This document shows, piece by piece, positions 56,386-62,603 of a stretch of 64,000 bases of DNA. This stretch comes from Spirochaetales bacterium (GTDB taxonomy: Bacteria > Spirochaetota > Spirochaetia > DSM-2461), in contig JAFGXR010000061.1 in NCBI GenBank assembly GCA_016936555.1, positions 1 through 64,000 of the forward strand. The letters are read 5' to 3'. A program made the position numbers and the translations under genes. The notes under the pieces are model-generated. The model ran no database searches and had not been told where the DNA came from. It was given only the letters and a program-made list of their open reading frames with translations. Every line of letters begins with the position of its first letter. Position 1 is the stretch's first letter.

Positions 56386-57648
56386 ATGGGAAACATCAAA
56401 GTCTACAGATACCGATGGATCGTTCTGGCGGCCTTTTTTCTTATAACCATGGCCGTGGAAATACAATGGCTCACTTTCGCGCCCATTGCGAGAGCGGCCC
56501 AGTTCCACTACGGCTCACAGCTCACGCCGGGCTCTCTCTTCAATATCGATTTTCTGTCCATGATCTATATGTTCGTGTTTCTTATCCTCTGCATTCCCGC
56601 TTCCTATGTTATCGATACATTCGGTATTAAAAAGGGAATCGCCCTGGGCGCCCTCATAGCGGGATTCAGCGCTCTGGGAAAGGGAATCTTCGCAGATAAT
56701 TATAAAGCTGTTCTGCTCTTCCAGACGGGACTCGCCATCGCCCAGCCCTTTATCCTCAATGCTGTTACCGCTCTGACAGTCCGGTGGTTCCCCCTGCGAG
56801 AAAGGGGCACTGCCGCCGGTCTGGCGGCATTGGCCCAGTACCTGGGAATCATTGTCGTTATGATCGCCACTCCCTTTCTCATCACTGTGGGATACGGGGA
56901 AAAGGGAGAGATCGTCTCGGTCGAGGGAATCCGCTCCATGCTTCTGATCTACGGATTCTTCACCCTTTCGGCCGGTCTTACCGCGGCTTTTCTCATTAAG
57001 GAAAAACCTCCGACAGCCCCTTCGGGAGAAAACATGGAGAGACAGGATTTCATACAGGGCATAAAGAGAATTTTGGGATTGAGGGATATGCAGCTTCTGC
57101 TCGTTCTCTTCTTTATCGGTCTGGGATTGTTCAATGCCGTATCGACTGTCATCGACTCTATCTGCGCTACAAAGGGATTATCCATGGAGCAGAGCGGACT
57201 GACCGGAGGGATTATGCTTCTGGGAGGCATTATCGGAGCTCTTATCATTCCGGTCCTCTCCGATAAATTGCGGAAAAGGAAAATTTTCCTGCAGATTTGC
57301 ATGATCGGGATGCTGCCCTCCGTTGCGGGTCTGGCCTATTTCACATCATTCGCCCCGCTGATGGCCAGTTCTTTTTTTCTCGGTTTTTTCGTCATGAGCG
57401 CCGGACCGCTGGGTTTTCAGTACGCGGCCGAAGTCAGTTCCCCCGCTCCGGAATCGACGTCGCAGGGAGTCATTCTTCTTTCGGGACAGATTTCCGGCCT
57501 GATTTTTGTCGCCAGGATGGGCACGGAGCAGGGAATAAAACTCTGGATGGTTATTTTCGTTGCGCTGGCGGCGGCAGCCGTCTTTCTGACATCGCTGCTG
57601 AAAGAATCACCGATGATCATTACGGAAGCGGAAAAATACGGATTATGA
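56386..57648 (+). CDS. MFS transporter, FLVCR-like
   Basis: A 420-residue protein with twelve membrane helices. The N-terminal block (YRWIVLAAFFLITMAVEIQW, LTFAPIARAA, IDFLSMIYMFVFLI) and PFILNAVTALTVRWFPLRERGTAAGL match the branch related to eukaryotic FLVCR haem/choline carriers and various bacterial exporters. The substrate is unknown. The ATG has GGAGG five bases upstream, but that site is partly enclosed in a hairpin. The last six bases overlap the stop of a GGDEF gene on the other strand. Confidence 0.82.
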   Translation: MGNIKVYRYRWIVLAAFFLITMAVEIQWLTFAPIARAAQFHYGSQLTPGSLFNIDFLSMIYMFVFLILCIPASYVIDTFGIKKGIALGALIAGFSALGKGIFADNYKAVLLFQTGLAIAQPFILNAVTALTVRWFPLRERGTAAGLAALAQYLGIIVVMIATPFLITVGYGEKGEIVSVEGIRSMLLIYGFFTLSAGLTAAFLIKEKPPTAPSGENMERQDFIQGIKRILGLRDMQLLLVLFFIGLGLFNAVSTVIDSICATKGLSMEQSGLTGGIMLLGGIIGALIIPVLSDKLRKRKIFLQICMIGMLPSVAGLAYFTSFAPLMASSFFLGFFVMSAGPLGFQYAAEVSSPAPESTSQGVILLSGQISGLIFVARMGTEQGIKLWMVIFVALAAAAVFLTSLLKESPMIITEAEKYGL

Positions 57649-58677
57649 GACAACCCGGACCAGTTTGACTGTAAAATCTGCTCCGATTTCTATGCGGTCC
57701 CGCCCTGAATCCTTGGCTCTGTAGAGAAGTGTGTCGGCTTCCTTGAGAAGGCGCTCGACTTCTCCCTCGGCTCCGTTCAGTTTACCGCCGGTGACGCCGC
57801 AGCTGAAAGTGGGGCGGATATTGCGACTGTAGGGGTAGGAAGCGAAGTCGGTCCGGACTCTTTCCAGATAATTCAGAGCGTTGTCCGGTCTGGTATGGGG
57901 GAGGAGAACGACGAATTCCTCTCCTCCGTAACGGCAGATGATATCGAGGCTCCGGCAGTCCTTGCGGAGAACCGCTGAGAAAACGCGCAGCACTTCATCG
58001 CCGAAATCATGGCCGTAGGTGTCATTGATTTTTTTAAAATGGTCCAGATCAATCATAGCCAGCGTGCAGTCAAGCCCTGTCCGGCTGGATCGGTCTATCT
58101 CTTTTTTCAGCTCCAGAAGAAAGCTTCTCCGGTTCAGCAGTCCCGTGAGAGCATCTTCATTGGCCATTCTGAGCAGCCTGTCCTGTTCCTGAACAATCTC
58201 TGTCAGATCTTCGATAAAAACGGCATAGGAATCTTTATATTCCCGGTCAAGTCTTTTAACATGCACCTCTGCCGGAAAATGCGTACCCATATCATTGAAA
58301 AAAATGGTTTTGAAACGGCGGTTCGCCGAGAGGGAGCAGTCGATATTACGGAAGAGGGATTTGCCGCAGATATCTTCCCGTGCCCCGTAAAACCAGGACT
58401 CGCCTTTCAGATTCAAATCGAGAATAATCCCTTCGGAATTGATTATGAAAATCCCCTGGGGGGAATGACGCAATAAAGAATCTTCTATTCCTTCGCTTTT
58501 CACGATTGCTTCAGCGGTTCCCGTCAGTCTGCTGCTGACAAATCCCCCGAGAAAAAGAAGCAGGGCTAAAAAAGCATAAGAGGAAACAGGAATCGCGGGG
58601 AAAAAACACAGACCTGTCCCTGTGAAAATTATGAGAAGTGCGGCATTGGACAATAGAAATTTATAAGAGACCTTCAT
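57643..58677 (-). CDS. Diguanylate cyclase with membrane anchor and PAS domain
   Basis: A 344-residue protein. Two membrane helices in residues ~8-50 are followed by a PAS domain (SLLRHSPQGIFIINSEGIILDL) and a GGDEF domain. Its active site ICRYGGEEFVVL is preceded at the right distance by the inhibitory RxxD site (RSLD). It should make cyclic di-GMP near the inner membrane. GGGAGAG precedes the ATG. No EAL or HD-GYP phosphodiesterase is encoded in the window. Confidence 0.92.
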   Translation of the reverse strand: MKVSYKFLLSNAALLIIFTGTGLCFFPAIPVSSYAFLALLLFLGGFVSSRLTGTAEAIVKSEGIEDSLLRHSPQGIFIINSEGIILDLNLKGESWFYGAREDICGKSLFRNIDCSLSANRRFKTIFFNDMGTHFPAEVHVKRLDREYKDSYAVFIEDLTEIVQEQDRLLRMANEDALTGLLNRRSFLLELKKEIDRSSRTGLDCTLAMIDLDHFKKINDTYGHDFGDEVLRVFSAVLRKDCRSLDIICRYGGEEFVVLLPHTRPDNALNYLERVRTDFASYPYSRNIRPTFSCGVTGGKLNGAEGEVERLLKEADTLLYRAKDSGRDRIEIGADFTVKLVRVVS

Positions 58678-58744: not shown

Positions 58745-60169
58745 GTGAAAACACTAATATTTGAAAAACGCACTGAAGAAATCCGGGGGGCCGTATTTCT
58801 GAAGGATATTACACTGACGATCGAAGAAGGTGTCCATTGGGTCTTTCTGGGAGCCAATGGCTCGGGGAAAAGCCGGTTGGCCGAGCTGATCGGCCGTGAA
58901 TGGCCCGGGAAATGCGGCTATGTCTCCTTTGAAAAAGAGAAAGAGATTATAGACCGGGAAAGGCGGGACGATGAAAGCGATATCCTCGACCGCCCCGATC
59001 CGGGCCGATCCGCTTCGGATTTTATTCTCGAACGGAACGGAACGGAAGAGGAAATGACAGTTCTCGCCGGAAAGTTCCGATTTACCGAACTGCTGGACAG
59101 AGGACTGAAATACCTGTCCACAGGAGAGCTGAGAAAAGTGCTCATAGCCGAAGAACTGATGAGCCGTCCCGAAATGCTCATACTCGATGAACCATATGAA
59201 GGCCTCGATGTCTCCTCCCGCTCCGATCTGGAAAAGCTGATCGGGGATCTGATGGAACAGGGGATTCAGCTCATACTGATGCTCAACCGATTCAGCGAAA
59301 TACCCGAAGGCATCGATTCCCTCGGTTATCTCCAGGACCGCTCTCTGGTCCTGCAGGGGAACAGGGAAGCGATTCTCCGTTCCGAAGAGCTGAGACGGCT
59401 CCATCACTTCCACGGGGAAAGCCTCCCACCTCTGCCGCCCCCCCCATCGGAGGGTGAGGATTTATATGGCGGACCGGTTCTTGTTTCAATGAAAGATATA
59501 CACGTTGCCTATGAGGGGAAGGAAATCCTCAAAAATCTCAACTGGGACGTTTTAAGAGGGTTTCACTGGAAAATTGTCGGCCCCAACGGTGTGGGGAAAA
59601 GCACCCTTCTGAGCCTTATTAGCGGAGACAATTCCCAGGCCTATGCCAATGACATAACTCTCTTCGGAATGAAAAAAGGGAGCGGAGAAACGGTCTGGGA
59701 TATAAAAAAGCACATTGGGTACCTCTCTTCGGCGCTGCAGCGCGACTACCGGGTCCGGGTTTCCGTCAAACTCGTCGTCATCTCCGGATTTTACGATTCC
59801 ATCGGTGTCTACAGCCACTACAGCGAAAATGAAGCCCGGCTGGCGGAAGAGTGGCTGAAGCTCATAAAAATGGAGCACAAAGCCGATAAGCCCTTTCAGA
59901 GTCTCTCCTTCGGAGAACAGAGACTGGTTCTCATAGCCAGAGCCATGGTGAAACACCCTCCCCTGCTTATTCTCGATGAACCCTGTCAGGGACTGGATGA
60001 AGTGAACAGGCTTATGATACTCAAGCTGATAGATATTCTGGGGCAGAAAGGCGAAACGACACTGCTTTACGTTACCCACCACAGCGAAGACAGAATTCCC
60101 TCGATCAGAAAAGAACTGCGGATGGATTTCGGCGGAAAAACATTTGAAATCGAACTGGAAGAGAGCTAA
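58745..60169 (+). CDS. Tandem-ATPase ABC protein (ModF/PhrA-like)
   Basis: A 474-residue soluble protein starting at GTG. Two nucleotide-binding domains lie in one chain: Walker A FLGANGSGKS, signature LSTGELRKV and Walker B LILDEPYEG in the first; Walker A VGPNGVGKST, signature LSFGEQRLV and Walker B LLILDEPCQG in the second. It has no membrane domain and no ABC-F linker motif, matching the ModF/PhrA type whose role is uncertain. A very short gene follows 12 bases after its stop. Confidence 0.88.
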   Translation: MKTLIFEKRTEEIRGAVFLKDITLTIEEGVHWVFLGANGSGKSRLAELIGREWPGKCGYVSFEKEKEIIDRERRDDESDILDRPDPGRSASDFILERNGTEEEMTVLAGKFRFTELLDRGLKYLSTGELRKVLIAEELMSRPEMLILDEPYEGLDVSSRSDLEKLIGDLMEQGIQLILMLNRFSEIPEGIDSLGYLQDRSLVLQGNREAILRSEELRRLHHFHGESLPPLPPPPSEGEDLYGGPVLVSMKDIHVAYEGKEILKNLNWDVLRGFHWKIVGPNGVGKSTLLSLISGDNSQAYANDITLFGMKKGSGETVWDIKKHIGYLSSALQRDYRVRVSVKLVVISGFYDSIGVYSHYSENEARLAEEWLKLIKMEHKADKPFQSLSFGEQRLVLIARAMVKHPPLLILDEPCQGLDEVNRLMILKLIDILGQKGETTLLYVTHHSEDRIPSIRKELRMDFGGKTFEIELEES

Positions 60170-60181
60170 GATAAGCTGGAT

Positions 60182-60352
60182 ATGAAAGAAAAAATCGGAG
60201 AACAATATATTCGTCTCGACCTTTTATCCTTTGAACAGGCCGAACTGATTCTGGAGTACCAGAAAGAACACGGAGACATGAAATTCGGTGATATCGCCGT
60301 CTATCTGGGTTTCCTCGATGAAGATCAGGTCGGAAATTCTTTAAAAGAATAA
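60182..60352 (+). CDS. 56-residue stand-alone protein with two MshEN-like motifs
   Basis: This short open frame begins 12 bases after the ABC gene. Its two halves each fit the 24-position MshEN pattern (RLGxx-hydrophobic pair-xxG-hydrophobic pair-x4-L-x3-L-xxQ). The first runs from Lys4 to Gln27 (KIGEQYI, LLSFEQAELI, LEYQ); the second from Lys34 to the C-terminus (KFGDIAVYLGFL, QVGNSLKE), where the last Gln position is the stop codon. MshEN is the cyclic di-GMP-binding domain at the N-terminus of type IV pilus/type II secretion ATPases. The ribosome site is weak, so expression is likely but not certain. Confidence 0.6.
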   Translation: MKEKIGEQYIRLDLLSFEQAELILEYQKEHGDMKFGDIAVYLGFLDEDQVGNSLKE

Positions 60353-60386: not shown

Positions 60387-61352
60387 ATGAGGATACTGAT
60401 TATCGGAGCCGGCGTAACCGGCAGCCTTTTTGCCTCCTATTTAGCCGGCAGCCGGGAAAAGCTTGAAAAAAAGCTCCGGGAAAAATTCGAACTGAAGATA
60501 CTGGCCCGGGGGGAAACCTTCAGGAGACTGAATGAAAACGGCCTGAAAATTCATCATGTTGTTCAGAACATAACGACCATAGACAGCATACCTGTCATAA
60601 AAACTCTGGAAAGCGGCGACGTATATGATTTTGTATTTGTATTCCTGCGGAAAACCCAGGTTGCCGCGATTATGGAGGAACTGAAATCGAACCGGTCCGG
60701 TCTCTTTGTTTTCGCCGGCAATAACGGAACCGGCCTGGAAGGATTGTCCCCTCCTCTGAAACAGCAGAAAATCAGCCTGGCTTTCCCCGCAGCGGGTGGA
60801 CGGAGAGAGGAAGGTACTGTTTTCTCGGTACACGGTAACAAGCCCTCGCTCATATTGGGCAGAAACAAGAATACGGCTAAAAGAATCAGAAACCTGAAAA
60901 AAGTATTCCGTCTATCGGGCATTTCCCTGAAAACAACCGGCGCCATGGACTCCTGGCTGAAACACCATCTGGCTCTTATCATTCCCCTGTCTCTGGCGCT
61001 CTACAGCGATGGAGGAGACAATGTATCTCTCTCGAATAACAGCGATCTGATCAGGCAGAGCATAAAAGCTGCAAAAGAGGGATCCGCCGCCCTGAGCCGC
61101 CTCGGACACCCCCTGCGGCCCTGGAAACTGCGATTTTCCTTGTGGCTTCCCTGTCCCCTTATCAGAAATAAGGTGAAAAAGCTGCTGGCATCGCCCATGG
61201 GAAAACTTCTGGTTTACGACCACTGCATGGCCGCTCCTGAAGAGATGAAAGAACTGGCGGGGGAGCTGGAAAGACTGGTTGCGCCCGATGAGCGTCCCAG
61301 ACTGAACCTTGAGGACCTGTTCCTTAAAACAATTGACAACAGAACCGAATAG
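60387..61352 (+). CDS. Ketopantoate reductase-like NADP-binding protein
   Basis: A 321-residue protein with an N-terminal NADP site (ILIIGAGVTGSLFASYL) and the ApbA/PanE stretch VFVFLRKTQ. The C-terminal part is shortened in the catalytic region compared with the protein at 7201: the K-x4-N-x3-N pattern is not evident, and SWLKHHLALIIP takes its place. It may reduce a different substrate or be non-catalytic. A TATGAT box ends six bases before the ATG. It lies between the MshEN-like gene and a diguanylate cyclase gene. Confidence 0.7.
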   Translation: MRILIIGAGVTGSLFASYLAGSREKLEKKLREKFELKILARGETFRRLNENGLKIHHVVQNITTIDSIPVIKTLESGDVYDFVFVFLRKTQVAAIMEELKSNRSGLFVFAGNNGTGLEGLSPPLKQQKISLAFPAAGGRREEGTVFSVHGNKPSLILGRNKNTAKRIRNLKKVFRLSGISLKTTGAMDSWLKHHLALIIPLSLALYSDGGDNVSLSNNSDLIRQSIKAAKEGSAALSRLGHPLRPWKLRFSLWLPCPLIRNKVKKLLASPMGKLLVYDHCMAAPEEMKELAGELERLVAPDERPRLNLEDLFLKTIDNRTE

Positions 61353-61379: not shown

Positions 61380-62603
61380 ATGATTGACAGGGATTCAATA
61401 TTCTCGGACATATCTGTAAAAATCTCTCTTCACGACAGAAAAACTGTTATATCTCTCAATGAGTCCTGCTTATTTGAACCGGAAAACAGAGACGAGCTGA
61501 CGTCCTACTTCCATCCCGATGACCTTAAAGACTTCGAAAGGGAATTCAATGACAGTCTCGACAGAGCCGAGCCGCTGTTCCAGATGTCGGATTGCCGCCT
61601 CAGAGATAAAAGGGGCAACACGAAACACGTCAGAATAAGAGGCGTCCTCAATGAGGGCTATGCGTCGCTGTTTTTTACCGATGTCTCCGAATACTACGAA
61701 AAGTTCCGCGACAGCAGTAATCTGATTAACCGCTATGAACAGCTTCTGCTGACTCTCAAGGAAGCTGTCTGGGACTGGAATCTTACCGATGATACGGTAT
61801 TCTATTCCGACCGGTGGTTTGAAATGCTGGGGCTGACCGGAGAAGAGTCCGGGGGGACTTTCGATTTCTGGAAAAGTCTTGTTCATCCCGATGATCTGGA
61901 AAGTGCACTGGAGGCTCTAGAAGATCATATAAGTGGCAAAAAAGACATTTATGAAGCGATTTACCGGATGAAGCGGAAAGACGGATCCTGGATATGGATA
62001 AGAGACAGAGGGAAAAGTCAGCTGGACAACCACGGAGCAGTCAAGAGAATGATCGGTTCTCATCGTGATATTACAAATGAAAAAACAGTGCGGGAAAATC
62101 TCGAAAAGATGATTATCACCGATGAGATGACCGGATTGTACAACCGGAGGCACTTCGACACCCAGATACGCGATGAAATCCTCCGGGCCGAAAGATACGG
62201 CTCCAGATTATCCATAATTATGATCGACATAGATCTCTTCAAACAGATCAATGACACATACGGACACAGCGCCGGTGATACGGCTCTGAAGGAGCTGGCC
62301 AGGACAATCAAGGGAAAAATCCGCAATACCGACTCGGCTTTCAGGACAGGAGGCGAAGAATTCGTCGTCATAGCACCTCTCACCGATGAGAGCAGCGCCA
62401 TGAAGGCGTCGGAGCGGTTGCGGAAAGCTGTATCGGAAATTTGCGTCGACACGGGCTACGGATCATTTACCTTCACCATCAGCCTGGGAGTGACTACTTT
62501 CGTAAAAGGCGATACCTACAGCAGCCTCTACGAACGGTCCGACGTGGCGCTCTACCTCTCCAAAGAGTCGGGCCGGAACTGCTCGACACTCAAACTCCAC
62601 TGA
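61380..62603 (+). CDS. Diguanylate cyclase with two PAS-like domains
   Basis: A 407-residue cytosolic protein without membrane helices. A PAS-like N-terminal part contains FHPDDLKDFEREF and a second PAS with PAC segment holds WDWNLTDDTVFYSDRWFEML, VHPDDLESALEALEDHI and DGSWIWIRDRG. The C-terminal GGDEF domain has RTGGEEFVVIAP and the inhibitory RxxD site (RNTD) five residues upstream. It should be an active, product-inhibited cyclase that responds to a soluble signal. The gene follows the reductase-like gene by 27 bases. Confidence 0.9.
   Translation: MIDRDSIFSDISVKISLHDRKTVISLNESCLFEPENRDELTSYFHPDDLKDFEREFNDSLDRAEPLFQMSDCRLRDKRGNTKHVRIRGVLNEGYASLFFTDVSEYYEKFRDSSNLINRYEQLLLTLKEAVWDWNLTDDTVFYSDRWFEMLGLTGEESGGTFDFWKSLVHPDDLESALEALEDHISGKKDIYEAIYRMKRKDGSWIWIRDRGKSQLDNHGAVKRMIGSHRDITNEKTVRENLEKMIITDEMTGLYNRRHFDTQIRDEILRAERYGSRLSIIMIDIDLFKQINDTYGHSAGDTALKELARTIKGKIRNTDSAFRTGGEEFVVIAPLTDESSAMKASERLRKAVSEICVDTGYGSFTFTISLGVTTFVKGDTYSSLYERSDVALYLSKESGRNCSTLKLH

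Follow-up and report, generated by a model that had tools for sequence, protein, structure and literature searches.

Free-standing MshEN-type small proteins with an asymmetrically altered motif pair in Spirochaetota

The N-subdomain of Vibrio cholerae MshE is built from two tandem 24-residue motifs that form a four-helix bundle. Its crystal structure shows one guanine of cyclic di-GMP (c-di-GMP) lodged in each motif and Gln residues in contact with ribose and phosphate, and the isolated subdomain, VcMshEN_N(1-62), binds the ligand with a KD of 0.35 uM (PMC5013675). Fusions of MshEN to CheA and CheX have already been recorded by Wang et al. (PMC5013675). In Thermus thermophilus the related GSPII domains belong to PilF, an 889-residue ATPase. 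GSPII-B is a very tight binder in which the Lys at position 1 of the motif promotes c-di-GMP binding; the Q218E substitution at its motif-II site lowers affinity 77-fold, to 460 nM, and the double mutant does not bind (PMC11731258). For GSPII-A to bind again, both motifs had to end in Gln and motif II had to begin with Arg (PMC12002112). Spirochetes have many cyclases, yet few MshEN receptors are described in them in the PMC papers searched; for Leptospira interrogans a single MshEN receptor, in GspE, has been reported (PMC12943098).

The window analyzed here is a 64,000-nt stretch of a Spirochaetales genome (GCA_016936555.1, contig JAFGXR010000061.1, positions 1 to 64,000 of the forward strand). 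It contains a short gene, mini-MshEN, whose 56-aa product P0001 (MKEKIGEQYIRLDLLSFEQAELILEYQKEHGDMKFGDIAVYLGFLDEDQVGNSLKE) carries two MshEN-type motifs and little else. The gene runs from an ATG at 60182 to a TAA at 60350-60352, the same limits as those originally assigned to it. The features of the locus are given in Table 1.

Table 1. Mini-MshEN, its motifs and the neighbouring genes in the window
Feature	Position	Strand	Remarks
PAS-GGDEF diguanylate cyclase	57643..58677	-	lies ahead of the ABC gene, on the other strand
Protein with two ABC ATPase domains	58745..60169	+	upstream neighbour, 12 bp ahead of mini-MshEN
Mini-MshEN gene (P0001)	60182..60352	+	orthologs; dN/dS 0.07-0.11; AlphaFold2 pLDDT 88.8
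Motif I, K4-Q27, KIGEQYIRLDLLSFEQAELILEYQ	60191..60262	+	K4, G6, L24 and near-invariant Gln27 retained
Spacer KEHGDM, 6 residues	60263..60280	+	between motifs I and II
Motif II, K34-E56 then stop, KFGDIAVYLGFLDEDQVGNSLKE (stop)	60281..60352	+	F35-G36 retained; no terminal Gln
ApbA/PanE-like (ketopantoate reductase) protein	60387..61352	+	downstream neighbour, 34 bp after mini-MshEN
PAS-GGDEF diguanylate cyclase	61380..62603	+	second gene downstream of mini-MshEN

Conservation of the mini-MshEN gene

Mini-MshEN is a real, conserved gene under purifying selection. A scan of the genome collection queried with P0001 alone returned no relatives, and the scan with an alignment of its orthologs gave matches in Spirochaetaceae, Spirochaetales and Spirochaetota MAGs. 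The same small gene, the search for which in relatives had been proposed as a check in the original prediction, was found in several Spirochaetota genera. Orthologs with the same start and the core MxE[KR]IG...(VI)..LLSFEQAE..L..Q......KFG[ED]IA are present in two genomes of the same genus (G011, 84% identity; G013, about 72% identity), in five genomes of the same family beyond the genus (G001, G004, G014, G015 and G016) and in three genomes of other families (G250, G394 and G400). Seventeen positions are invariant in an alignment of ten orthologs, and the genera share the start Met. Between P0001 and its G011 ortholog, 20 of 30 substitutions fall on third codon positions, and it is from this pair that the dN/dS range in Table 1 was obtained by three methods. 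A scan for promoters and terminators found nothing clearly above chance. A chance open frame in an intergenic spacer might be suspected from the shortness of the gene and from the lack of a clear Shine-Dalgarno sequence upstream of it. Such an origin is refuted by the conservation across genera, which persists despite differing neighbours, and the codon-position bias, the purifying selection and the confidently predicted fold all speak against it.

It had also been suggested at the outset that the protein could be a cut-down remnant of a larger MshEN ATPase of the GspE/PilB type that had lost its ATPase part, and MshEN is indeed best known as the N terminus of such ATPases. This suggestion did not hold up and we consider it very improbable. 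Start and length are alike in several genera, the start Met is retained and the dN/dS is about 0.1, as expected of a gene under purifying selection. No GspE/PilB-type ATPase was recognized beside the orthologs examined, among the translated neighbours that were read, and the genome's own GspE (L103) has no MshEN above the cut-off. Behind the MshEN bundle there is no T2SSE ATPase domain, as P0001 ends after 56 aa and the adjoining genes encode the ABC ATPase and the ApbA-like protein. In addition, the FGEIA signature is common to the small proteins and to MshEN of the chemotaxis type.

Homology to MshEN and the state of the two motifs

P0001 is a true homologue of MshEN. It scored 50 bits (E=2.5e-14) against a profile built on 89 MshEN segments, all taken from longer proteins and none from small ones. 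There is a mild circularity in this value, in that the segments had been gathered with a profile including small proteins; the best of 2000 shuffles of P0001 reached 12 bits, and the other 762 frames of the window were absent from the best matches listed. When a profile of 26 small proteins was compared with the PDB, the best match was the c-di-GMP complex of MshE, 5htl (E=2.5e-6), with PilF at 4.9e-6 and PilB at 7.7e-5, and the profile of P0001 orthologs matched PilF (3.1e-4) and MshE (4.7e-4). The single P0001 sequence also had 5htl as its best PDB match, at a weak E=0.053. AlphaFold2 predicts P0001 to be a confident four-helix bundle, with the mean pLDDT shown in Table 1, in keeping with the fold of MshEN_N. 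In a Foldseek search of the PDB with this model, the top 12 matches were all MshEN (MshE) or PilF GSPII structures, and the match to 5htl_B had a TM of 0.91, an rmsd of 0.5 A over 53 columns and a probability of 1.00, with weak E-values (0.06) because the chain is so short.

Family databases capture these proteins unevenly. When P0001 and 25 relatives were scanned against Pfam, none matched MshEN (PF05157), and P0001 had no Pfam match of any kind; FumaraseC_C and other weak Pfam matches in this set were treated as noise. The NCBIfam model NF053729, "cyclic di-GMP-binding domain, MshE-related", recognizes 36 of 37 small members. P0001 itself scores 27.1 bits, under the 38-bit cut-off, and its orthologs L017, L029 and L061 are above it; L061 has retained the Gln that P0001 lacks. 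If the preferred reading set out below is right, bare MshEN bundles lying under the Pfam threshold would constitute a set of receptors or adaptors overlooked until now in spirochetes.

The original prediction held that P0001 fits the 24-position MshEN pattern twice. Compared with the relaxed motif of Wang et al. (PMC5013675), each of the two motifs has one violation: in motif I, position 10 is Asp where the pattern calls for Gly/Ala/Ser, and in motif II the stop codon stands at position 24. Agreement with the strict MshEN consensus is poorer, since by our own count motif I matches 6 of 11 specified positions and motif II 5 of 11. The prediction that the final Gln is missing and that the stop codon stands in its place was confirmed: the TAA occupies the site of the last residue of motif II and is one base from CAA. 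P0001 resembles MshE (5htl) in that both motifs have Gly as their third residue and motif I ends in Gln, and differs from it in lacking both the MshEN_C subdomain and the ATPase, in the Lys that replaces Arg, the Ile/Phe that replace Leu at position 2, the Asp that replaces Gly at motif-I position 10, the loss of the motif-II Gln and a spacer of 6 residues rather than 5. Six residues is the spacer length in 43 of 49 small proteins, whereas copies in longer proteins mostly have 5. The departure of P0001 from a 5-residue spacer is indecisive because PilF and PilB have a spacer of 7 in our own reading of the alignments. Like PilF GSPII-B, the protein begins motif I with Lys (PMC11731258), and in common with GSPII-A it has a terminal Gln that is changed or missing (PMC12002112); unlike the GSPII domains, its bundle is the entire protein.

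The absent last Gln of P0001 is a family trait. Gln closes motif I in 48 of 49 small proteins (Q27 in P0001) and closes motif II in 7 of 49, as against 88 of 92 MshEN copies in longer proteins, which, unlike P0001, are fused to signalling domains. In seven of the 49 small proteins, P0001 included, a stop lies at or before the motif-II Gln site. Nearly invariant among the small proteins are the ligand residues of motif I (Lys/Arg, Gly and Gln) and a Phe that replaces Leu39. The half of the pocket based on motif I is therefore kept, with K4, G6, L24 and Q27 joined by F35 of motif II in the place of Leu39, and the other half is relaxed, its phosphate-gripping Gln having been lost family-wide in the small proteins.

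Proposed roles: a half-site adaptor or a docking module

With moderate confidence, we interpret P0001 as an MshEN_N adaptor that acts in trans and whose c-di-GMP pocket is weakened or reduced to a half-site. The gene product would consist of the MshEN_N subdomain alone, its two tandem MshEN motifs folded into a four-helix bundle, and because it lacks an effector domain it must act by binding something. Such a small adaptor would still bind a guanine nucleotide, c-di-GMP being the likeliest, either with reduced affinity when alone or with its site completed through dimerization or docking on a partner, and the signal would be relayed through the binding of the adaptor to that partner. A further arrangement, which we regard as rather unlikely, is that two copies, or one copy and a partner, enclose a single c-di-GMP, so that the ligand would glue the proteins together. 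Direct c-di-GMP binding by P0001 has, in our estimate, close to an even chance; it is possible and not to be assumed, because PilF GSPII-B tolerates Q218E and GSPII-A needed both Gln residues. If the ligand does glue two proteins together in the way described, these proteins, dispersed trans-acting adaptors of about 55-80 residues, would be among the smallest c-di-GMP receptors. The asymmetric loss of half the pocket allows one to ask cleanly whether c-di-GMP can still be sensed by half an MshEN site.

The alternative with a tentative yet substantial claim is that P0001 is a degenerate MshEN bundle that binds no nucleotide and serves purely as a protein-protein docking module. The loss of the motif-II Gln in most of the small proteins, together with two residues of motif I, Ala at position 17 and Asp at position 10, is consistent with such a role, and PilF GSPII-A provides an example of a folded, c-di-GMP-blind bundle with two imperfect motifs (PMC12002112). 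Complexes of the Xanthomonas PilB N-domain with PilZ (7lkm, 7lkn and 7lko) were among the weak Foldseek matches of the P0001 model. This N-domain reportedly docks PilZ. Pure docking would, however, place no obvious demand on the motif-I ligand residues and the Phe, which are nearly invariant, and close orthologs exceed the cut-off of the c-di-GMP-motif model NF053729.

For the adaptor reading, motility control is the first place to look for a partner, since close MshEN relatives by sequence are located inside CheA and CheX/CheC-type chemotaxis proteins, with which P0001 shares profile similarity and the FGEIA signature of motif II. In the CheA of this genome (L010:226-2364, contig C64) two MshEN motifs follow each other nearly without a spacer (SQKKVGE), and in many other Spirochaetota CheA proteins the motifs have the usual spacing. 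Small stand-alone MshEN proteins of another type, with Gln closing both motifs, were observed in two genomes that also carry a P0001 ortholog (L051:3969-4175 in G013 and L052:4964-5191 in G001); these Gln-retaining proteins are candidates for a positive control in binding assays.

Genomic neighbourhood, paralogs and the wider family

Mini-MshEN is part of a same-strand run in the order ABC, mini-MshEN, ApbA, PAS-GGDEF and a helicase-like gene. Its two GGDEF neighbours, no more than about 2.5 kb away, could suggest that P0001 is the dedicated receptor of the adjoining cyclases, forming a local cyclase-receptor pair, and the gene order is common to three congeners. We consider this improbable. 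The order is preserved only within the genus (G000, G011 and G013); in seven other genomes with orthologs, from the same family (G001, G004, G014, G015 and G016) and from other families (G250 and G394), the neighbours are unrelated and the flanks that were read hold no GGDEF gene. GGDEF domains number 50 in this 4.7-Mb genome, so an adjacent cyclase carries little weight. The other four paralogs have no GGDEF nearer than about 25 kb, judged by the listed places. Of the originally proposed free-standing mini-receptor beside cyclases, what survives is a conserved free-standing MshEN-type protein belonging to a paralog family; the link to the cyclases does not, given the genus-only order and the unrelated neighbours.

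Four further free-standing MshEN-type paralogs of 60-78 aa (L002-L005) are encoded in the same genome, making five with P0001, and each of the four has counterparts within the genus. AlphaFold2 predicts the same four helices for one of them (pLDDT 93.6). A survey of 393 Spirochaetota genomes found further small MshEN members in several families. The MshEN domain is already known; in the open-licence PMC papers searched we found no description of a conserved family of free-standing, half-degraded MshEN proteins with several members per genome. In a tree of small and embedded MshEN copies the labels cluster strongly yet require 6 changes, and a single origin of the small proteins is not claimed because of these changes and because the columns are too few for deep forks. 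In phylum-wide counts of GGDEF candidates, the genomes with clear small MshEN members are all rich in GGDEF; no clear small member was found among the listed genomes without GGDEF or in the one-GGDEF family f5, an absence estimated to be non-significant.

Several other arrangements of MshEN motifs were observed in the course of this work. In one genome (G404) a single 490-aa frame fuses malic enzyme to mini-MshEN with no intervening stop (L067:1486-2955), and in two others (G121 and G311) mini-MshEN is a separate gene immediately after the malic enzyme gene. Proteins of 270-340 aa from genus g3 (L022, L023 and L024) carry two MshEN-like motifs C-terminally, and the two that were scanned, L023 and L024, have a DnaJ domain. 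Two or three MshEN-like motifs in series occur in proteins from Bacillota, Xanthomonadaceae and another bacterium (L122, L127, L187 and L129), accompanied by CheC and receiver domains in L127, a weak CheX match in L187 and HDOD in L129.
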